Assembly (NCBI RefSeq): GCF_001044425.1
Contig: NZ_LFML01000131.1
Location: forward strand, 29,350-93,349
From: Streptomyces roseus
Lineage (GTDB): Bacteria > Actinomycetota > Actinomycetes > Streptomycetales > Streptomycetaceae
Length of the DNA stretch: 64,000 bases
Direction of reading: 5' to 3'
The notes below the pieces were generated by a model, which did not search any database, was not told where the DNA came from, and saw nothing but the letters and a program-made list of their open reading frames with translations. This document shows positions 2,096 through 25,467 of the stretch, one piece after another. The position numbers and the translations under genes are program-made. The number at the start of each line of letters is the position of its first letter. The first letter of the stretch is position 1.

Positions 2096-2445
2096 ACGGT
2101 GGAGACGGTGTCTTTCGGATCGTGGTGGCGGTCCCGGGCCGCTCGGCCGGAGTCCGTTTCCGGGGGTGGGCCCATGGCGGGCATGCCGAGGTCGGTCGGC
2201 GCCGGGGCCGTGCGGCAGGCAGATGTCCGGCGTCGGTGCAGTACGACCAGGACGCCCAGTCCGGCGGCCACGGCCAAGACCACCAGGGCGGGCATCCAGA
2301 GCGCGGCGATCGAGGACGTGATGCCGATGCCGCCGAGGACGGCCACGAGCGGGCCCGCGCAGCACGCCGCGCAGGCGGCGACCGCGGCCGCGCCGGCGCC
2401 GAGCGTGCCCCAGGGCCGGGACGGACGGGGAGAGGGGGCGCTCAT
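2092..2445 (-). CDS. MerT-like small membrane protein
   Basis: A 117-residue membrane protein with two or three helices. The first helix contains CAACCAGPL, a vicinal-cysteine motif like that of MerT/MerC mercuric-ion transport proteins. A second hydrophobic segment (PALVVLAVAAGLGVLVVL) is followed by a basic, cytoplasmic tail. The start codon overlaps the stop of the upstream MerR-type regulator by four bases (ATGA), so the two genes form a translationally coupled operon read from the MerR promoter near 3,250. The pairing suggests metal or thiol-reactive ion handling. Mercury itself is not proven: no merA or merP is present in the window. Confidence 0.75.
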   Translation of the reverse strand: MSAPSPRPSRPWGTLGAGAAAVAACAACCAGPLVAVLGGIGITSSIAALWMPALVVLAVAAGLGVLVVLHRRRTSACRTAPAPTDLGMPAMGPPPETDSGRAARDRHHDPKDTVSTV

Positions 2446-3238
2446 GCGGGTCCTCCGAAGAGGTCGGCCGGCATCCCGGCGGCGGACTCCGGGGCTCGCA
2501 CGTCGAGCTGGAGAGCGGTCGGGGTCAGGTGCAGCGTGAAGTCGAGGAACGCGCAGCAGACCTGCTCCGCCGCGGCCAGTGCCGCGAGCTCACCGGCCAG
2601 CTCGGCGCCCGCCGGGAAGGACAGCCGCAGGCCGCCGTCGATCTCCTCGCGGCCCGTGGCCTTGGCGGCCAGTTGCCGCCATGTGCCGTGCGCTCGCCCA
2701 GCTCGGCGTGGCCCAGGGCGCAGGCCACCGGGACCTCCCGCCACGGCTCGGCCTCGGGTGTGAGGCGGGTCGGCGACAGCTCGACGGGCACGGGCCCGGC
2801 CGCCGGCACCGGGCCGGTGGTGGTGCAGCCGCAGTCCGGCCCGCACGGCCCGGCCGGAGCCGGTCCGGACAAGTCGGCGTGGACGCCGGCCAGGTGGGCG
2901 GAGAACGCGCGCAGTTCGGCGATCCGGCCGTCGGTCTCCGCGATCCGGCCGTCGGTCTCCGCGATCCGGCCCGAGATCAGCGGCAGCATCCGCGCCCGCA
3001 CCGAGGAACGCACCCCCTCCTCGCGTACGCCGAGGAGTTCGCGGATCTCTGCCAGGGACAGCCCCAGGAGCTTGGCCGAGGAGACGAAGGCCAGACGTTC
3101 CACCGCGTCCTCGCCGTACACCCGATACCCGGACGAGGTGCGGTCCGCGGGCACCAGACCGGCGTCCTCGTAGTAGCGCAGCGTCGTGGCCGGTACGCCG
3201 GAGCGCTCGGCCGGCTGCGAGATGCGGTGGCTCGTCAT
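2442..3238 (-). pseudogene. MerR-family metal-type regulator, frameshifted
   Basis: The N-terminal part is a clear MerR regulator: HTH with TTLRYYEDAGLVP and SSGYRVYGEDAVERL, a dimerisation helix, and a Cys-rich segment CGPDCGCTTT. The C-terminal part (WRQLAAKATGREE to DLFGGPA, including EQVCCAFLDF) continues in a different frame, so one base appears lost or gained around 2,686-2,705. The total span of 797 bases is not a multiple of three. This may be a real mutation or a sequence error, since the last codons still overlap the next gene's ATG as in an intact operon. A 21-bp tandem duplication at 2921-2962 repeats the heptad GRIAETD in the coiled coil. It probably autoregulates from the palindromic promoter at 3245-3276. 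Confidence 0.8.
2921..2971 (-). repeat. 21-bp tandem repeat inside the MerR gene
   Basis: Two perfect 21-bp copies (2921-2941 and 2942-2962) and the first nine bases of a third. They encode repeated GRIAETD heptads in the dimerisation helix. The repeat is in frame, so it lengthens the coiled coil by one heptad. Confidence 0.85.
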
Positions 3239-3244
3239 GCCCCG

Positions 3245-3276
3245 ACCGTAGACCTTCGACCTGACTCGAAGGTCAA
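3245..3276 (-). promoter_or_regulatory. MerR-type promoter and operator
   Basis: On the minus strand a -35 TTGACC (3271-3276) and a -10 TACGGT (3245-3250) are separated by 20 bp, the overlong spacing typical of MerR-controlled promoters. The spacer holds a perfect inverted repeat with arms GACCTTCGA (3251-3259) and TCGAAGGTC (3266-3274). The start codon at 3238 lies about seven bases after the -10, so the mRNA is probably leaderless. Confidence 0.8.
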
Positions 3277-3315
3277 GTCGGCAGGTCGGCCGGTGGGCCC
3301 GGATGTGCGGTCGCT

Positions 3316-3882
3316 TCAGGTGCGGGTGTTGATGAACCCCACCACGACCGAGCCCCACCAGCACAGCTGAGAGATCAGGGCCGTGGCTCCGGCCCAGGCC
3401 AGGGCGGCGGGTCCGGGGGCGCCGGGGGCGGACAGGCGGCGGCTGAGCAGGCCGGCCTGGAGGCCGTTGACCGTGAGCGTGGCCACCAGTGCGATCTTCG
3501 CCTGGGTGAGGGGCGAGGACAGGTCGGGGTGGAGCATCAGGCCGCTCACGACCAGGCCGGCGAGGCCGGCCCAGATGGGTACGTGGAGGCGGGAGGTGAC
3601 GTTCAGGGCCTCGGAGAGCGGGGCGCGCCCGGTGAGCCAGAGGGTGCCGTACCAGTCGGCGGCCAGGACGGCCCCGAACCCGAGGGCCAGGGAGGCCAGG
3701 TGCACGAAGAGCGCGACCTCGTGCAGGACGGGGTCGGTGCGGACGTGGGCGGAGAACCAGAGGCCGCCGGCGAGGGCCGTCACCGCCGCGAGCGAGGCGG
3801 CAGCCACCGTCCACCACGAGTCGTACACCCGGACCGGTCTGAGCGCGCCGGGCGTGGGGCTGGGGGCTGGAAGGGTGGCCAT
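3316..3882 (-). CDS. iron-box-associated CopD-like membrane protein
   Basis: A 188-residue integral membrane protein with about five helices. Conserved-looking elements include FVHLASLALGFGAVLAADW in the second helix and LHVPIWAGLAGLVVSGL in the third, with histidines within or near helices as in CopD/DUF2269-like heme or metal membrane domains. No firm family assignment is possible by eye. AGGAG lies 8-12 bases before the ATG. A palindrome matching the IdeR/DmdR1 iron box lies about 36 bp upstream, so expression is probably repressed by iron. The role may be in iron, siderophore or heme handling (inference from the operator only). Confidence 0.8.
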   Translation of the reverse strand: MATLPAPSPTPGALRPVRVYDSWWTVAAASLAAVTALAGGLWFSAHVRTDPVLHEVALFVHLASLALGFGAVLAADWYGTLWLTGRAPLSEALNVTSRLHVPIWAGLAGLVVSGLMLHPDLSSPLTQAKIALVATLTVNGLQAGLLSRRLSAPGAPGPAALAWAGATALISQLCWWGSVVVGFINTRT

Positions 3883-3917
3883 GGTGACGGCTCCTGGCAG
3901 ATAAGAATCAGATAAGA

Positions 3918-3936
3918 CAGGTAAGCCTTACCTAAG
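3918..3936 (-). promoter_or_regulatory. IdeR/DmdR1-type iron box
   Basis: On the minus strand the site reads CTTAGGTAAGGCTTACCTG, close to the actinobacterial iron-box consensus TTAGGTTAGGCTAACCTAA. The core AGGTAAG-C-CTTACCT (3919-3933) is a perfect 7-1-7 palindrome. It lies between a TTGACG (3947-3952) and the start of the membrane protein gene at 3882, a position suited to repression. Confidence 0.75.
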
Positions 3937-3952
3937 ATTTCGAGCCCGTCAA

Positions 3953-4225
3953 GAATCGTTTCGTCAGGTGGAAACGGCCGGTGGGAGGGGATCGGGATCG
4001 TTCGCGCGGAGTCGCGGCCTGCGCCCTGCAGCCGCCGGTGGGTTGGGGTGCGGGGCGCCGCATTCGCCGCACCGCCCGGCCCGCCGTCGCTTCTTTCTCC
4101 ACCCTCGACGGGGGACACCACTGGCTGGTCGCTGCGGCCGCAGGGAGCGTGGGCGGTTGTCGGGCGGACGGGGGTGTGTGGGGGGACACTGGGCCCAGGT
4201 GCGGTGCCGGACGTGCTGCGGCGAA
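3953..4225. other. intergenic stretch without a supported gene
   Basis: Between the iron-box promoter and the VOC gene no frame shows family similarity or a credible start with a ribosome site. I see nothing here beyond leader sequence for the VOC gene. Confidence 0.5.
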
Positions 4226-4240
4226 CGGAGGACAGCCATA

Positions 4241-4621
4241 ATGCTGGGTGACAGCAAGGGATTCAGCGGCTACTCGGTGGACGACATCGAGGCGGCCAGG
4301 GGGTTCTACGGTGAGACGCTCGGACTGCGGGTCTCCGAGGAGAACGGCCTGTTGACCCTGCACCTGGCGGGGGACACCGACGTGCTGCTGTACCCGAAGG
4401 AGAACCACCGGGCCGCCACCTTCACGGTGCTGAACTTCCCGGTGGAGGACATCGACCGCGCCGTCGACGAACTGTCCGCACGCGGCGTGGCCTTCGAGCG
4501 GTACGAGGGGTTCGAACAGGACGCGAAAGGGATCGCCCGCGCGGCGCCCGGCCCCGCGATCGCCTGGTTCGAGGACCCGGCCGGCAACATCATTTCCGTC
4601 CTCCAGCCGAACGGCATGTAG
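4241..4621 (+). CDS. VOC (glyoxalase/bleomycin-resistance) family protein
   Basis: A 126-residue single VOC domain. It shows the paired beta-alpha-beta pattern: [22 protein letters not shown] at the start, [19 protein letters not shown] in the second half, and the terminal [14 protein letters not shown] signature. Such proteins use a metal site or bind small molecules. Substrate is not predictable. GGAGG lies ten bases before the ATG at 4241, and similarity starts right there, so the longer upstream open frame is not used. It stands alone. Confidence 0.88.
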
Positions 4622-4776
4622 CCGGCCCCCCCGGGGCCGCCGGGGCCCGGGCCGGACCACCCGACCGCCCCACGGTGGGTGGCCGCAGCGCGCAGGGGGT
4701 GGCTAGCCCCATGGTCGAGTCCTCGCAGGGCCGCGATGCTTGAAGCACTTGAGGCGGACTCGAACGAGGAGACGAC

Positions 4777-5043
4777 ATGCGGATCGTGGCAGCGGACGGC
4801 GTGACCGGAACGGCTCTGGCGGACGGTCGGATGAAGGTACGAACGGCAGAGCGCGGCGAGTTCCGCTGCAGCCCCGTCGGCTCGGCCATGTGGGTGGCCC
4901 TGCGGGTCAACGACGGGTTCCTGGACCTGGCCGCGTCCTCCCTCGCCGACGCCTGGCAGACCGACGAGGCCAAGGTCCGTACGGCGATGAACGCCTGGGC
5001 CGAGCGTCTGATGGACGCGGGCCTGCTCAAAGCGGCGGCGTGA
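4777..5043 (+). CDS. PqqD/RRE-like small protein
   Basis: An 88-residue protein. Residues about 30-86 follow the PqqD (RiPP recognition element) pattern: a small strand region, SPVGSAMWVALRV (compare the NxTGxxIWxLL motif of PqqD), then a helix with LADAWQTDEAKVRTAMNAW and a final LMDAGLLKA turn. In RiPP pathways such domains bind the leader peptide and deliver it to a modifying enzyme. Here no radical SAM, lasso cyclase, protease or recognisable precursor is adjacent. The next genes are YciI- and SRPBCC-type. The assignment rests on pattern only. It could instead be a generic small winged-helix protein. Confidence 0.6.
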   Translation: MRIVAADGVTGTALADGRMKVRTAERGEFRCSPVGSAMWVALRVNDGFLDLAASSLADAWQTDEAKVRTAMNAWAERLMDAGLLKAAA

Positions 5044-5115
5044 GCCCCGCCGGGCACCACCCGACCGGGTGAAAAAGCTCGTGGCCGTCCTTGATCATCC
5101 AGTACGGTCCGGGGC

Positions 5116-5409
5116 ATGTTCATAGTCACCGTGACCTACACGGCACCCCTCGAAGACGTGGAACCCTTGCGGCCGGCCCACGGCGACTGGCTCAAGCAGC
5201 AGATCGCGCGCCGCACGCTCCTGGTGGCGGGCCGTCAGAAGGCGCTGACCGGTGGTGTGTACCTCGCCCCGCAGATGCCCGTCGAGGACCTCGGCCGCCT
5301 GCTCGCCACGGATCCGTACGTCGTGGGCGGCGTCGCCGACCACACCGTGACCGAGTTCACCCCGCACCTCGTCGTACCCGGCCTGGAGGCCCTCACCGTG
5401 TACGAGTGA
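5116..5409 (+). CDS. YciI family protein
   Basis: A 97-residue ferredoxin-like protein of the YciI/YCII family. It begins MFIVTVTYTAPLEDVEPLRPAHGDWL, where the His and Asp of AHGDWL match the conserved pair in the family's putative active site, and continues with LLVAGRQ and DPYVVGGVADHTVTEF. Many members are small dehydratase-like or unknown enzymes. It lies 72 bp after the PqqD-like gene and 37 bp before the SRPBCC gene, so the three may be co-transcribed. Confidence 0.88.
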   Translation: MFIVTVTYTAPLEDVEPLRPAHGDWLKQQIARRTLLVAGRQKALTGGVYLAPQMPVEDLGRLLATDPYVVGGVADHTVTEFTPHLVVPGLEALTVYE

Positions 5410-5446
5410 GCCGAGGCGCCCGAAGAGAGTTCTGGAGCAACCCCCC

Positions 5447-5923
5447 ATGGACGGCACGACGTTCCTCTATACGACCTACATCCGCACGACCCCCGAGCGG
5501 CTCTGGCAGGCCCTGACCGAGCCGGCCCTCACCGACCGGTACTGGGGCGTCTCCTTCGAGAGCGACTGGGCCAAGGGCTCCCCCCTCGTCTGGAAACAGG
5601 GCGGAGCCACCATGGCCCACCCCGAACAGGTCGTCCTCGTCGGCGACCCCTTCCGGCGGCTGTCGTACACCTGGCACACGTTCACCGAGGAGTGGGCCCG
5701 GGCCGTCGGCATCGGTGAGGAGGTCCGCACCCGGATCGCGGCCGAACGCCGGTCGGCGGTCGCCTTCGACATCGAGCCGGAGGGCGAGATCGTGAAGCTG
5801 ACCGTCACCCACGAGTTCGACGCCGAGAGCATCCTGCACGGCATGTGCAGCCAGGGCTGGCCGCCGATCCTCTCCAGCCTCAAGACCCTGCTGGAGACCG
5901 GCGAGCCCCTCCCGACCACCTGA
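5447..5923 (+). CDS. SRPBCC (AHSA1-like) family protein
   Basis: A 158-residue protein with the START/AHSA1 fold. It opens with TTYIRTTPERLWQALTEPALTDRYW, the family's typical first strand and helix. GSPLVWK follows, then LSYTWHTF and KLTVTHEFD, and a long C-terminal helix with GWPPILSSLKTLLETG. These proteins bind hydrophobic ligands or act as co-chaperones. ArsR-coupled members are common, but no ArsR gene is next to it here. GGAG precedes the ATG by about ten bases. Confidence 0.9.
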   Translation: MDGTTFLYTTYIRTTPERLWQALTEPALTDRYWGVSFESDWAKGSPLVWKQGGATMAHPEQVVLVGDPFRRLSYTWHTFTEEWARAVGIGEEVRTRIAAERRSAVAFDIEPEGEIVKLTVTHEFDAESILHGMCSQGWPPILSSLKTLLETGEPLPTT

Positions 5924-5932
5924 TCCGCGCCG

Positions 5933-6361
5933 CTACGTCCCGGGCTCGCCCGCCGTAGGCACGCACAGCACCGGCACCGGCGACAGGTGCAGCAGCTTGT
6001 GCGGGGTCGAGCCCAGCAGGGCGCCGCGGATGGGGCTGTCGCCCCAGCTGCCCACGATGATGACCCGCGCGCGGTGGCGTTCCGCCGCGTCGAGCAGGGC
6101 CTGGGCCGGTTTCTCGTCGACCACCTCGACCGTCGACGGGACACCGGCCTCGTCGGCGGCCTCGACGGCCCGGGCCAGTGCGCTGCGCCCCGCCTGGCGG
6201 ACCGCCTCCCGGTGCGCCCGGTACTCCTCACCGGCGGCCCCGGGCGCGGCGGCGCCGTAGACGAGGACGAGCGGCTCGCCGAACGCGGCGGCGACTTCGA
6301 GCGCCACGTGCAGGGCGCGCTCCGCGCCGGGCGATTCGTCGTACCCCAGCACCACGGACAT
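5933..6361 (-). CDS. universal stress protein (UspA family)
   Basis: A 142-residue single Usp domain. The N-terminus (VVLGYDESPGAERALHVAL) has the Asp that contacts adenine, and the C-terminal half holds the ATP-binding signature GSWGDSPIRGALLGST, followed by VPVLCVP. It is likely an ATP-binding cytoplasmic stress protein. The start lies 35 bp after the stop of the upstream permease gene on the same strand, so both form an operon. Usp domains are often paired with amino-acid permeases, where they may modulate transport. Confidence 0.9.
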   Translation of the reverse strand: MSVVLGYDESPGAERALHVALEVAAAFGEPLVLVYGAAAPGAAGEEYRAHREAVRQAGRSALARAVEAADEAGVPSTVEVVDEKPAQALLDAAERHRARVIIVGSWGDSPIRGALLGSTPHKLLHLSPVPVLCVPTAGEPGT

Positions 6362-6396
6362 CAAGGACTCCTTCGGGAAACCCGTACGGTCGCCGG

Positions 6397-21030: not shown

Positions 21031-21375
21031 ATGGCGAATACCGCGATCCGCGTGCGCCTCACGCAGGGGGCGAGCGAGAGCGACATCGGAGCGCTGAAGG
21101 CGTGGCTCGAACGGGAGCGGAAACTCGAAGCGCTCCGCACCAGCGGCGCGCTGGAGATCCAGGAACGCGCGGGGACGCAGGACGGGCCCGGTAGCCCGAT
21201 GGGGGCCGGCATGGACATCGTGCTGGTGCTGATCGGGGCGGCCGCCCCCAAACTGTTCGACGAGGTGTTCGAGCAGGTGAAGAGCGGGGTCCGCGCGTGG
21301 CGCGAGAACCGCCGGTCCGTGGAACGGGGTGAACCCCCAGAGGTCGACGTCGAGCCGGCCGGCGACGGGAGATAG
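21031..21375 (+). CDS. effector-associated constant component EACC1-like protein
   Basis: A 114-residue protein. It begins with a short strand (TAIRVRLTQG) and a helix (GALKAWLERERKL). A variable linker with Gly-Pro follows (GPGSPMGAG), then a hydrophobic segment (MDIVLVLIGAAAPKLFDEVF) and a closing amphipathic helix (VKSGVRAWRENRR). This is the pattern of EACC1, the small constant partner found next to effectors such as caspase-like proteases in predicted actinobacterial conflict systems (established family; assigned here by eye). A strong GGGGGAGG precedes the ATG. The caspase gene starts four bases after the stop, so they are co-translated partners. Confidence 0.7.
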   Translation: MANTAIRVRLTQGASESDIGALKAWLERERKLEALRTSGALEIQERAGTQDGPGSPMGAGMDIVLVLIGAAAPKLFDEVFEQVKSGVRAWRENRRSVERGEPPEVDVEPAGDGR

Positions 21376-21379
21376 CCCC

Positions 21380-24046
21380 GTGGCGCGCTTCGACCCGCGC
21401 GGGAGGGCGAACCGGGCGCTGCTCGTCGGGGTCGGCGATTACGACTTCACCCGGCCTGAGCACCCCTTCGGCGTACCGGGCGACCTCCCGGCGGTGGAAC
21501 ACAACCTCGACGGTCTGCGACAGGCGCTCCGTGCCGGGGGCGTCTTCGCCGAGGACGGGATCACCGTCGCCCGCCCGCGCACCGTGGACGAGTTCGACCG
21601 GCACCTGGACGCCGCCGTCGACGCGGCCGAAGGGCTGCTCCTGCTGTACTTCTCCGGCCACGGAGCCGTGCCGAGTACGGGCGACGAGCTGTGGCTGCTG
21701 ATGCGGCGGGCGACGATCGTCCCCGGCACGGAGTCCGTGTTCCGCGGCGCCGTGCCCTGGAAGAGCGTCCTCACCGTGCTGTCCCGCGCGAGGGCGGAGC
21801 GGGTGGTCGTCATCCTCGACTGCTGTTACGCGGGAAACGCGTCGGCGGCGTGGGACACGCTCGGCACCGCCCAGCGGCAGCGGACCTCGCTGCTGATGAG
21901 CGTCCAGGCCAACAACCGCATCGACGCGGGCGACGGCGACACGCCCACGCCGTTCACCGCGCACCTCGTACGCCTCCTGAGGAACGGCGAGATCGGCTTC
22001 GACGAGCTGGCCGACCGGCTCAGGGCCCACATGTCCGCCCACCACACGACGCTGCGCGAGCCCCCGGAGCCGTGGGAACCCCAAAGCCGCTCGGCCACCT
22101 CGGGGACCGACGTGCTCCTCGCCGCCCCGCCCGTCCGCCCGCCCGGCACACCCCCGTCCCCGCCTGCGCCGCCGGCCCCGCCGACGCCCTTCGCACAGCC
22201 TCACGGGGCCGGTGCCCGGCGGCACGTCCCGAAGCCGGGGCGGGCGCGCGCCGGGTTACGGGCCCTGCTCCGAAGACCGGGCGGGCCCGGCGGGCTCGTC
22301 CCCCTCACCGGCCGCCGCAGGCTCGCGGCCGTCATCGGCGTGCCCGCGGTGATCGCCGGCCTCGTCGCCACCGGCTTGGCCGTCCTCCACGGCGGGGACG
22401 GCGCCCCCTGCACGCCGCCGCTCGAACTGCGGCTGCTCACCGACCCCGATCTCGAACCCACCCTCCGCAAGGCGGCGGAGGCGTACCTGACGTCGAAGGC
22501 GAACGGGACGGGCGACGGTTGCAGGCGCAGCGGCATCACCGTCTACAGCGCCGGCGCCGCGGCCACCGTCACCGCGTTCAGCCGGCAGTCCGATCCGTGG
22601 CAGCGGCCGACGGGCGAGGACACCAACCCGCAGCGCGACATCGGCCCCCAGCCGGACATCTGGATCCCGGCCTCGTTCGCGAGCGCCGACCGGGCCCGGC
22701 TGACGTCCCCCGAGCGGACGTACGTCTCCTTGGAGGCCGATCCGGAGCCGTTCGCGTACTCGCCGGTGGTGCTCGCCGTACCGCAGGACCTGGCGGCGGA
22801 GCCGGCCGCCGAACGGGTCGGCAGTCTCGCGGCCCTGACGGAAGCGGTCAGGAAGCGCGAGGCGAGGGCCGAGGTGCGGCGCACGGATCCGGAGAACACC
22901 GACGCGGGCCTCCTCGCCACGATCGGGCTGTACGGCGGCGCGGGGGAGCGGGACCCGGCCTCGGCCGAGCGCGGTGTGGCCCAGCCGGGACCGCCGGCGC
23001 GCACCGGCGCGGAGCTGCTGTGCACCCTGCCGGACGACGACGCGGTCGACGACCGCACCTCCGCGCTGGTCCCGGAGTTCCTGCTGAAGACCGCCGTGGG
23101 CTGCGACAGTGCGACGCGGACCGGCCGGATGGCCGAGTACCCCGTCGACGTCCCGGGCCTGAGCCCGACGTTCGTACGGGTGCGCTGGAAGGGCGCCGAC
23201 CGGGACGGGGAGGTGCGGGACAGGGCCGTGGAGGGGTTCCGCACCTGGCTGACCGGCAAGGGGGGCGCGAAGACGTCCGGGCCCGCAGCCCCCGGCGGTC
23301 TCGCCGTGTTCGGGCAGGACGGCTTCCGCGCCGGATCGGGGGGCCACCGGCCCCTCGCCGCCAGCGACTTCGGCGCGCTCGCCGATCCCGGGGTGCTCCC
23401 CGGTCCCGCCCTCCCGACCGCGATGACCGACGCGCTCAAGCGCTACCGGGAAGCCAACGGGCCCGGCCGGGTGCTCTTCCTGCTCGACTCCTCCGGATCC
23501 ATGGGCGGCCTGTGGGAGGGACCCGGCGGCGCACCAGGCATCATCGCCCAGTCCCTCGCCGGGCTCGGGGGCCAGGACGTGTACGGCGTCTGGGGCGTGG
23601 CCGGCGAGCCGGGCGGCTCCCGCCCGTACGCCGAAGTGCTGTCCTTCGGCAAGCACGACCGCCAGGAGGCACAGCGTGCGATCCCCGCCTCGGCGCAGGT
23701 CAAGGACCTGGAAGCCGACCCCTACCGGGCACTGGTCGCGGCACTGGGGTTCATGGCGCAGCGCGGCACGGACGACCACCGGCCGCAGCTGATCGTCTAC
23801 GTCACGGACGACGAGGACGACAACCGGCTGACCGAGGACGGTCGGCTCGGTGATCTGCTCGCCTCCGTGCGGGCCGGGAGGATACCGGTGGTCATGGCCT
23901 CCCTGGACAGCGGCGGGTGCGACAAGGGCAAACCGGATGCCGCCATCTCGGAGGCGAGCGGCGGCCGCTGCCTGGACACCAAGGGCGACCTCGTCGCCCG
24001 GCTGCGCGACGAGGTCGCCAGGACCGGAACGGGGGACGAGGGATGA
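21380..24046 (+). CDS. membrane-anchored caspase / solute-binding-like / VWA fusion protein
   Basis: An 888-residue protein with an unusual order of domains. Residues 10-250 are a caspase (peptidase C14) domain with catalytic His94 (YFSGHGAV) and Cys148 or 149 (VILDCCYAGN). Residues 250-310 are a Pro-rich, basic linker. Residues about 315-337 are a membrane helix (LAAVIGVPAVIAGLVATGLAV). Residues about 345-630 resemble a periplasmic-binding-protein lobe (PDIWIPAS, YSPVVLAVP). Residues about 695-880 are a von Willebrand A domain with a MIDAS motif, DSSGSM (Asp703). The caspase should face the cytosol and the rest the outside. Leu293 is encoded by TTA. GTG start at 21380; the stop overlaps the next gene's ATG. 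Confidence 0.85.
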   Translation: MARFDPRGRANRALLVGVGDYDFTRPEHPFGVPGDLPAVEHNLDGLRQALRAGGVFAEDGITVARPRTVDEFDRHLDAAVDAAEGLLLLYFSGHGAVPSTGDELWLLMRRATIVPGTESVFRGAVPWKSVLTVLSRARAERVVVILDCCYAGNASAAWDTLGTAQRQRTSLLMSVQANNRIDAGDGDTPTPFTAHLVRLLRNGEIGFDELADRLRAHMSAHHTTLREPPEPWEPQSRSATSGTDVLLAAPPVRPPGTPPSPPAPPAPPTPFAQPHGAGARRHVPKPGRARAGLRALLRRPGGPGGLVPLTGRRRLAAVIGVPAVIAGLVATGLAVLHGGDGAPCTPPLELRLLTDPDLEPTLRKAAEAYLTSKANGTGDGCRRSGITVYSAGAAATVTAFSRQSDPWQRPTGEDTNPQRDIGPQPDIWIPASFASADRARLTSPERTYVSLEADPEPFAYSPVVLAVPQDLAAEPAAERVGSLAALTEAVRKREARAEVRRTDPENTDAGLLATIGLYGGAGERDPASAERGVAQPGPPARTGAELLCTLPDDDAVDDRTSALVPEFLLKTAVGCDSATRTGRMAEYPVDVPGLSPTFVRVRWKGADRDGEVRDRAVEGFRTWLTGKGGAKTSGPAAPGGLAVFGQDGFRAGSGGHRPLAASDFGALADPGVLPGPALPTAMTDALKRYREANGPGRVLFLLDSSGSMGGLWEGPGGAPGIIAQSLAGLGGQDVYGVWGVAGEPGGSRPYAEVLSFGKHDRQEAQRAIPASAQVKDLEADPYRALVAALGFMAQRGTDDHRPQLIVYVTDDEDDNRLTEDGRLGDLLASVRAGRIPVVMASLDSGGCDKGKPDAAISEASGGRCLDTKGDLVARLRDEVARTGTGDEG
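22256..22258 (+). promoter_or_regulatory. in-frame TTA codon in the caspase gene
   Basis: Codon 293 is TTA, a leucine codon that is very rare in Streptomyces and read by the bldA tRNA. It lies in the linker between the caspase domain and the membrane helix. Developmental control of translation is possible. Confidence 0.7.
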
Positions 24047-25467
24047 GCCGCCGCCCCGGACGCGTACGACGCGCGGCGTCGGCCGCGCTCCTCTCCCTGC
24101 TCCTCGTCGCGGGATGCGACACCGGCGGAGCCGAGGACGCCGGCGGCGGGCAGCCGGCCGCCTCGGGCGCTGCCGAGGTCCCGGGCGAGATCGTGCTGGC
24201 CAGCGGCCGGGACGTGACCGGCAGGGGAGGCATCCGCCAGCAGCTCATCACCGAGTGGAACCGGCAGCAGGAGGCCAAGGGCGTCGCCTACCGGGCGCGC
24301 CTCGTCGAACTCCCCGGCTCTGCCGACCAGCAGCGCAGCCAGCTCCTCGGCGCGCTGCAGTCCGGCAGCGCGGAGTACGACGTGGTCAACCTCGACGTCA
24401 CCTGGGTGCCGGAGTTCGCGGCGGCGGGACTCGTCCAGCCGCTGCCGGACCGGCTGGTGGACGAGGACGTCATCAAATCCGTCGCCGAGACGGCACGTTG
24501 GGGAGGGAAACTGTACGCCGCCCCCTTCAACAGCGACGTGGGGCTGCTCTTCTACCGCCGCGACTACCTGACGAGCGCCGGAGTGACCAGACCGGACCTG
24601 GGCAAGGATGCCGGCTGGCCCGTCGTCCAGCAGCTGATCGGCGTGCTCGACGCCGCCCGCAACAGGCTGCCCGCGGCCTACGCGAAGGGCTGGACCTCGC
24701 AGCTCGACGCCTCGTACGAAGGCCTCACCGTCAACGGCGTCGAGGCCTTCGCCTCCGCCGCGGACGGATTCAGCCTCACCGACAAGGAAGGCCGCTACGC
24801 CGGTTCCGTGGCCGAGCTTCAAGCGGGACTGGACGAGCTGCGCAACCGCACCCAGGCGGCGTACACGCTGCCGGACGCCGTCCACTCCGACGAGGCGGAC
24901 ACGCTGACCGACTTCGCCGCCGGCCGCACCGCCTTCCTGCGCCACTGGCCGTACGCGTACCGCACGCTCCACCAGTCCCTGTCCGCGGAGCAGCTCGGCG
25001 TGGCGCCCCTGCCCGGCAAAGCGGTGCTCGGCGGTCAGAACCTGGCCGTGGCCAGGGGCTCTCAGCGGACGGCCGCCGCGCTGCAGCTCGTCGCGTTCCT
25101 CACCGGCAAGGAGAGCGAACGCTGCCTGCTCGACGCGGGGTTCGCGGCCACCCGCGTCTCCGCGTACGAGGACGGCGCCCTGACCTGCACCACGGCGAAG
25201 CCGGCCGGCCAGGCCGCCGCCTCCCCGACGGGAGAGCGCACCGACCGGATGCCGCGGGACGGGAACGGCCGCCCCGCCTACGCGCGCGGCACCCTGCTGC
25301 CCGCCCTGGAGAACGCGGTCCAGCGACCGCGCACCCCGCTCTACGGAGCCTTCAGCCAGACGTTCGCCGGCCAGCTGGCCCGGCTCCAGGGCGGCACCCC
25401 GCCCTCCGACGCCCAACTGGCCGCGGACCTCGACAGGCAGCTGAAACGGGCCCTTCCCTCACACTGA
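24043..25467 (+). CDS. extracellular solute-binding lipoprotein
   Basis: A 474-residue family-1 (sugar type) solute-binding protein. Signal peptide with lipobox LVAGC (Cys25). Typical features are GEIVLASGRDVTG, ITEWNRQQEAKGVAY, YDVVNLDVTWVPEFAAAGLVQPL, and GGKLYAAPFNSDVGLLFYRRDYL. These are the hallmarks of ABC sugar-binding lipoproteins. No ABC permease or ATPase gene is near. Instead it overlaps the caspase/SBP/VWA gene by four bases (ATGA), implying that it acts as an external ligand sensor or partner of that protein. Transport via a distant permease remains possible. Confidence 0.9.
   Translation: MSRRPGRVRRAASAALLSLLLVAGCDTGGAEDAGGGQPAASGAAEVPGEIVLASGRDVTGRGGIRQQLITEWNRQQEAKGVAYRARLVELPGSADQQRSQLLGALQSGSAEYDVVNLDVTWVPEFAAAGLVQPLPDRLVDEDVIKSVAETARWGGKLYAAPFNSDVGLLFYRRDYLTSAGVTRPDLGKDAGWPVVQQLIGVLDAARNRLPAAYAKGWTSQLDASYEGLTVNGVEAFASAADGFSLTDKEGRYAGSVAELQAGLDELRNRTQAAYTLPDAVHSDEADTLTDFAAGRTAFLRHWPYAYRTLHQSLSAEQLGVAPLPGKAVLGGQNLAVARGSQRTAAALQLVAFLTGKESERCLLDAGFAATRVSAYEDGALTCTTAKPAGQAAASPTGERTDRMPRDGNGRPAYARGTLLPALENAVQRPRTPLYGAFSQTFAGQLARLQGGTPPSDAQLAADLDRQLKRALPSH

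Follow-up and report, generated by a model that had tools for sequence, protein, structure and literature searches.

The 64,000-nucleotide stretch of Streptomyces roseus DNA analysed here (NCBI RefSeq assembly GCF_001044425.1, contig NZ_LFML01000131.1, positions 29,350 to 93,349 of the forward strand; hereafter the window) carries three consecutive genes that we are inclined to read as a surface sensor controlling a cytosolic caspase. The first gene encodes a small EACC1-like protein. The product of the second runs from a caspase through a Pro-rich linker and one membrane helix to a solute-binding-protein (SBP) fold and a VWA domain, and that of the third is an SBP lipoprotein. We prefer to see a sensor rather than an effector in the SBP-VWA exterior because different cytosolic heads are swapped on this conserved exterior.

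The caspase head scores 26.6 bits with Peptidase_C14 (Pfam cut-off 21.4) over residues 12-221 of the 888-residue chain. The corresponding part of the full-length model has a predicted local distance difference test score (pLDDT) mostly above 90, and its top Foldseek match is the MALT1 paracaspase (3v4o, E 7.3e-9). The NCBI profile NF047832 (caspase_w_EACC1) matches all 30 members of our alignment set A3 at E <= 1e-3, the best value being 7.3e-38. All 31 aligned full-length chains have His94, Asp147, Cys148 and Cys149. Of the 87 caspase-headed chains in the larger collection described below, 86 show the His and Cys; the remaining one (locus L170) is a partial match whose frame exits the fetched stretch. 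Following the caspase is a linker that varies widely: over the 31 chains the distance from residue 238 to the helix ranges from 54 to 281 residues, and the mean identity to the window chain is 33%, whereas the caspase and the SBP part both reach 63% and the VWA domain 65%. Hydropathy reveals one hydrophobic stretch only (segments starting at 314-321). The 20 residues before it contain on average 5.5 Lys and Arg, the 20 after it 1.4, and the excess lies on the caspase side in all 31 chains. Based on this charge bias, on six exterior cysteines that are invariant among the same chains and on the lipoprotein partner, the caspase is predicted to be cytosolic and the SBP-VWA part to lie outside the membrane; the reverse topology was rejected because of the bias. 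An initial annotation of the gene, made from the sequence alone, had proposed the same coordinates and numbering, His94 and Cys148/149 of a C14 protease, and a linker followed by one membrane helix. All of this proved right, including the start, as the conserved one is the GTG at 21380 within an open frame spanning 21329-24046. Its picture of a cytosolic protease with a receptor-like exterior, linked to the neighboring lipoprotein, is likewise supported.

At the sequence level the exterior is difficult to recognize. In the Pfam scan of the 888-residue chain Peptidase_C14 passed its cut-off, SBP_bac_11 remained below (22.2 bits, cut-off 25) and no VWA match was obtained. Since the full-length model is poor in the SBP part, the folds were tested on a model of the exterior alone (mean pLDDT 82.9), and in this model both are confirmed as a two-lobed SBP fold and a VWA fold. 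Model residues 5-356 superimpose on the sulfate-binding protein 5um2 (Z 20.9, root-mean-square deviation 3.7, 288 aligned residues), with similar matches to sulfate-binding 1sbp (Z 20.2, 283 residues) and M. tuberculosis SubI 6ddn (Z 20.1). The VWA part matches 4fx5 (Z 20.7, root-mean-square deviation 2.3, 173 aligned residues), and many further VWA chains match model residues 350-545. The SBP-like lobe that the initial annotation had placed at 345-630 is therefore correct as to fold, but it ends at about residue 694. Similarly, of the VWA domain bearing a metal ion-dependent adhesion site (MIDAS), the fold, the DxSxS motif and the final Asp stand (Asp703, Ser705, Ser707 and Asp810 are invariant in the 31 chains), but the usual Thr does not, its position being occupied by Asp780 (window 23717-23719) in 30 of the 31 caspase-fused chains. 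The replacement of Thr by Asp possibly means a changed metal preference. Two loci discussed below, L043 and L044, have Thr at this position. A wider count of Asp there (64 of 82) was set aside, as the alignment is uncertain. The initial annotation had named two outcomes as incompatible with its proposal, namely a structure prediction without an SBP fold and a caspase outside; instead, the fold is present and the predicted topology has the caspase inside.

Table. Features of the three-gene locus, in window coordinates
Feature	Position	Strand	Details or basis
EACC1-like small protein gene	21031..21375	+	114 aa, first of trio
Caspase-TM-SBP-VWA gene (TM, transmembrane helix)	21380..24046	+	888 aa, GTG start
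Caspase head, residues 1-245	21380..22114	+	Peptidase_C14, NF047832, model
His94	21659-21661	+	caspase dyad
Cys148/149	21821-21826	+	caspase dyad
Linker rich in Pro/Gly/Ala/Arg, residues 246-313	22115..22318	+	length and identity over 31 chains
Single transmembrane helix, residues about 314-337	22319..22390	+	hydropathy; N-in by charge
Solute-binding-protein fold, residues 344-694	22409..23461	+	structure matches 5um2, 1sbp
VWA domain, residues 694-884	23459..24031	+	4fx5 match; DxSxS at 703-707, Asp810
SBP_bac_1 lipoprotein gene	24043..25467	+	third of trio

The three genes stay together in other genomes. A pattern scan of a species-genome collection yielded 41 relatives, 32 of which have EACC1, caspase, SBP-VWA and lipoprotein in identical order, and 7 of which are cut by a contig end. 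In the last two, L043 (Pseudonocardia) and L044 (a metagenome-assembled genome of Thermomonosporaceae), just the exterior and its SBP partner are seen; the sequence of L044 also breaks off 5' of the exterior. Caspase and exterior share one open frame in 30 of the 32, L026 and L033 being frame-broken. In a Streptomyces sample, the exterior was detected at E <= 1e-60 in 68 of 295 genomes, reaching at least 300 bits in 58 of these. EACC1-type caspases are common in the genus: at E <= 1e-10 they were detected in 52 of 61 genomes, and in 36 of these 61 they exceed the cut-off. Running in-house profiles over the fetched loci, we collected 177 distinct exteriors. For 122 of them an SBP partner is encoded on the same strand within the fetched stretch; for the other 55 it is missing. 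Above 250 bits only two exteriors lack a partner, both at a contig end; below 240 bits most do. Caspase heads are found on 87 exteriors, of which 84 have the lipoprotein: it lies 3' of every caspase-headed copy with readable downstream DNA, and the three chains without it have just 0 to 2 bases downstream. An EACC1-related gene, recognized with a profile of the window's own family, lies 5' of 85 of the 87 caspase-headed loci, the exceptions being L170, where the frame leaves the stretch, and L219.

The caspase gene and the partner gene overlap at ATGA, which holds the stop of the former and the start codon of the latter. The partner gene matches SBP_bac_1 with 84.4 bits (Pfam cut-off 26), and the lipobox LLVAGC can be read in its product. 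The nearest named solved sequences are the trehalose/maltose-binding protein 1eu8 (5.6e-25) and LpqY (6.4e-22). A lipobox is found in 83 of the 84 caspase-locus partners, in 75 by pattern and in 8 by eye (P[AT]AC or LNAC), and in the remaining one (L028) that region is masked. A role in ABC transport was rejected on the basis of the adjacent genes: none of the 38 readable caspase loci has a same-strand gene with at least 5 hydrophobic segments directly after the lipoprotein. In 2 of the 38 a multi-transmembrane gene follows on the opposite strand, and one further locus offers no sequence there. At some loci without a recognized head a helix, not a lipobox, appears to anchor the partner. A further match to the partner-lipoprotein profile (L238:1-1236, 169 bits) turned up in a stretch that had been fetched because of an EAD1 gene.

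The gene upstream of the caspase, which the initial annotation had left unmentioned, is a remote relative of EACC1. Its product reaches 15.5 bits with PF19953, below the cut-off of 23.6. However, at E up to 1 this profile matches 20 of 22 members of the EACC1-like family (best 1.7e-6), and pairwise hhalign of the family against the true EACC1 of locus L001 gives a probability of 93 (E 2.7e-7). The genome of the window has a second EACC1-caspase locus, L001 (C139:88801-92430), with the order kinase-TPR gene, EACC1 (PF19953, 86.2 bits) and caspase. Its caspase carries C-terminal TPR repeats (TPR_12 32.2 bits, cut-off 30.1) in place of SBP-VWA. The L001 kinase (Pkinase, 68.2 bits) is matched only from profile position 120 on, so the start of the gene lies outside the stretch.

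In actinobacteria other than Streptomyces and Actinacidiphila, heads different from the caspase precede the paired exterior, each time in one open frame. Trypsin-type heads are found at L111 (48.3 bits), L151 (46.5 bits; cut-off 27.6) and, below the cut-off, at L087 (25.0 bits). By reading, L111 and L151 retain the triad His, Asp and Ser, and both have a Trypco2 gene directly upstream, identified by Pfam in L111 (76.8 bits, cut-off 24.2) and by phmmer in L151. This pairing of Trypco2 with trypsin parallels that of EACC1 with the caspase. A Ser/Thr kinase head occurs at L138 (Pkinase 137.1 bits, cut-off 31.7) and an EAD1 head at L088 (38.7 bits, cut-off 24.2), the only adaptor-type head among the relatives. 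At L088 an EAD1-TIR gene (2376-3743) directly precedes the EAD1-TM-SBP-VWA gene (3674-6379), and the two EAD1 domains are 96% identical over 97 residues. A search of 35 same-family genomes for further EAD1-headed cases gave no SBP-VWA-matching frame in the 29 fetched loci, many other EAD1 hits being left unopened. The N-terminal 215 residues of L118, L119, L120 and L137 look cyclase-like, with an invariant EDRGDG motif and, by eye only, class III-like motifs, and this label is unproven. The class III cyclase identity first read from these motifs was left unconfirmed by profile tests: hhalign returned a probability of 1.1, PF00211 matched none of the four heads, the top PDB match was a cyclase with E 0.072, and DUF7348 matched two of the four weakly (best E 0.0015). 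It should be kept in mind that the loci labelled by our trypsin, cyclase-like, EAD1 and kinase profiles had also served to build these profiles, so that the labels hold by construction; the independent evidence for the heads is that from Pfam, and the cyclase-like label has none. Two exteriors lacking a lipoprotein partner carry still other heads, a nucleoside phosphorylase at L094:2777-6070 (PNP_UDP_1, 74 bits) and an HTH_31-like domain at L095:4502-6829 (22.9 bits, below the cut-off of 27).

A tree was quickly computed, without bootstraps, for 63 of the 177 exteriors. It leaves out exteriors shorter than 480 residues, those without a head that lie at a stretch boundary, four loci with the caspase outside the exterior's frame and three in four of the caspase rows above 330 bits, and it keeps 8 of the 55 unpaired rows. 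A branch with 99% support in the Shimodaira-Hasegawa-like approximate likelihood ratio test divides the paired from the unpaired exteriors, and the caspase-headed exteriors form one group (97%). The 7 labels need 6 changes, the fewest possible, with one change each for caspase, trypsin and cyclase-like heads; several rows, including that of the kinase, are long and unsurely placed. On the simplest view, a single old module of exterior and lipoprotein acquired various heads, the caspase once. The module thus appears to be older than its caspase.

Sensors evolve in this way, with the exterior kept constant and the cytosolic enzyme exchanged, and an extracellular domain joined to a kinase makes a standard receptor layout. 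That binding outside may gate the caspase inside is suggested both by the constancy of the exterior across exchangeable enzymes and by the precedent of the GlnH-GlnX-PknG system. The steps that we infer for such a sensor, namely sensing, coupling through EACC1, caspase activation and linker cleavage, might proceed as follows. Outside the membrane, the SBP-VWA exterior and the membrane-anchored SBP lipoprotein would pair up to sense a ligand or a partner, either a small molecule in one of the SBPs or a protein or wall partner at the metal site of the VWA domain. Binding would alter the oligomeric state or the position of the receptor, and the EACC1 protein, which would sit beside the receptor at the membrane, would couple it to the caspase head. 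The latter could then cut itself in the long Arg-containing linker and/or cut cytosolic targets, and the cleavage would start a stress, defence or death programme. More tentatively, the trio could well belong to an actinobacterial family of modular receptors in which a constant SBP-VWA ectodomain and its lipoprotein are combined with a caspase/EACC1, trypsin/Trypco2, kinase, cyclase-like or TIR-recruiting EAD1 head. Such a family would be a prokaryotic counterpart of ligand-gated death and immune receptors, with the surface module acting as sensor and not as effector. To our knowledge, what triggers bacterial caspases is largely an open question. Offering an accessible extracellular ligand-binding pair together with an intact caspase, the trio makes this question directly testable, and head swapping supplies natural controls (the same exterior with a kinase or trypsin head) as well as chimeras. 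If the sensor interpretation is true, the assignment of sensor and effector would be reversed for one branch of EACC1 systems.

Nonetheless, a number of observations weigh against the sensor interpretation. The window caspase reaches 126.4 bits with NF047832 where the curated cut-off is 140, which rules out membership in this NCBI subfamily. Published EACC1 proteins have a conserved transmembrane helix that bears a patch of small residues; in the EACC1-like protein the hydrophobic stretch is weak (peak hydropathy 1.61), with small residues within and before it and no clear full-length helix, and none of the fetched loci has an EACC1 gene next to a non-caspase head. The predicted template-modelling score of the full-length model is 0.38, with low confidence in the SBP part, too little to support an orientation of the domains or a contact with the lipoprotein. 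As to the heads, EAD1 and kinase are each known from one locus, and the kinase-headed exterior of L138 is divergent (197 bits, a long branch). At L087:3960-6518 Ala takes the place of the trypsin nucleophile, and its stretch contains no Trypco2 gene; here the loss of protease activity and that of the co-gene may go together. Finally, 18 paired exteriors have no recognized head: a Pfam scan of all 18 loci gave no domain over cut-off before the exterior, and by reading they carry hydrophobic helices.

These observations have to be seen together with what other interpretations would explain. In the available text of Kaur et al. 2020 (PMC7159879), roles are assigned the other way around: EACC1 is the membrane sensor, the caspase a switch, and the variable C-terminus, here the exterior, an effector activated or released by auto-proteolysis. 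This published family model draws on as many as 50 alternative domains at the C-terminus, enzymes in many cases, and the long, poorly conserved linker between protease and helix would suit it. However, with the C-terminus predicted to be outside, a cut in the linker would free the caspase and not the exterior, and Pfam finds no toxin-like domain in the exterior. Moreover, the exterior is found again, together with its lipoprotein, on kinase, trypsin and EAD1 heads or with no recognized head at all, which is easier to understand for a shared input. We consider it unlikely that the exterior is an effector of this kind.

The 18 paired exteriors without a recognized cytosolic head would fit an SBP-VWA/SBP pair that serves as a device for wall or surface adhesion or assembly, the caspase only controlling its turnover or checking envelope integrity. 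Protein binding is common among VWA folds that have a metal site, which would also agree with such a role. Yet two adjacent SBP folds and the presence of kinase and EAD1 heads suit sensing better, and no wall-binding domain was found in the exterior by Pfam, making an adhesion device quite improbable. A nutrient sensor of the GlnH/GlnX type overlaps with the surface sensor proposed here as its special case. The lipoprotein would then report a sugar, in line with its closeness to the trehalose/maltose-binding proteins and LpqY, and the role of the caspase would be proteolysis during development, not conflict or death. There is an actinobacterial precedent for an SBP lipoprotein that controls a kinase. 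On the other hand, ligand specificity is unreadable at such identity, and EACC1, Trypco2 and EAD1-TIR all come from systems that, in the text available, are predicted to act in conflict. This special case seems rather doubtful to us. The surface sensor with a caspase output remains the interpretation with which we compare known systems.

The closest of these is System 4 of Kaur et al. 2020 (PMC7159879), the two-gene, membrane-associated EACC1-caspase system. Judging from the available text, it has in common with the window locus a 5' EACC1-like gene and a 3' gene with an N-terminal caspase and a variable C-terminus. The same text mentions C-termini with a transmembrane helix and an extracellular periplasmic-binding-protein (PBP) domain and, separately, a vWA version. 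The window exterior differs in joining PBP and VWA, and the locus has a conserved third gene, the SBP lipoprotein. Both the caspase and the EACC1-like protein, unlike the curated families, remain under their cut-offs (NCBI and Pfam, respectively), and 14 caspases that precede a Streptomyces exterior score 82-133 bits with NF047832, all under 140. By these profile scores, the window locus is a divergent sister branch of the published systems. In the literature texts searched, figures and supplements being outside that scope, we found neither the lipoprotein as third gene, although Figure 7C of Kaur et al. may show such a locus, nor head swapping on one exterior. The Trypsin/Trypco2 and EAD1/TIR modules (Kaur et al. 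2020, 2021) recur here as alternative heads, and the searched text of Kaur et al. does not place either of them on an SBP-VWA exterior with a lipoprotein gene. For an EAD1 arrangement such as that of L088, the accessible part of PMC8195603 proposes homotypic recruitment.

A caspase with a membrane-crossing exterior is already published and not new in itself. Besides the PBP and vWA versions mentioned above, Asplund-Samuelsson et al. 2012 (PMC3501461) describe, in the portion available, a cyanobacterial metacaspase-TM-CHASE2 protein, read as an exterior receptor with a cytoplasmic protease. The claim of the initial annotation that this layout is unusual for bacteria thus finds no support. The cyanobacterial protein likewise tethers a cytoplasmic caspase homologue to an extracellular receptor domain, but it is a single sequence with another exterior, and no EACC1 or lipoprotein partner is mentioned in that portion. 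In the actinobacterial GlnH-GlnX-PknG system (PMC6069109, PMC9769921), an SBP lipoprotein is reported to hand on ligand information to a membrane protein, which in turn governs an enzyme of the cytosol. There, however, the enzyme is a separate kinase and GlnX a helical receptor with four transmembrane segments, and the likeness is one of description, homology having been left uncompared. As for the resemblance to a death receptor noted in the initial annotation, it holds as an analogy only. Pfam finds no death-fold domain in the 888-residue chain, on which ground homology was rejected, the caspase is fused and not recruited, and the exterior is unrelated, although L088 does combine an EAD1 head with an EAD1-TIR gene. 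What the window chain would share with metazoan death receptors is sensing on the outside joined to a caspase on the inside.

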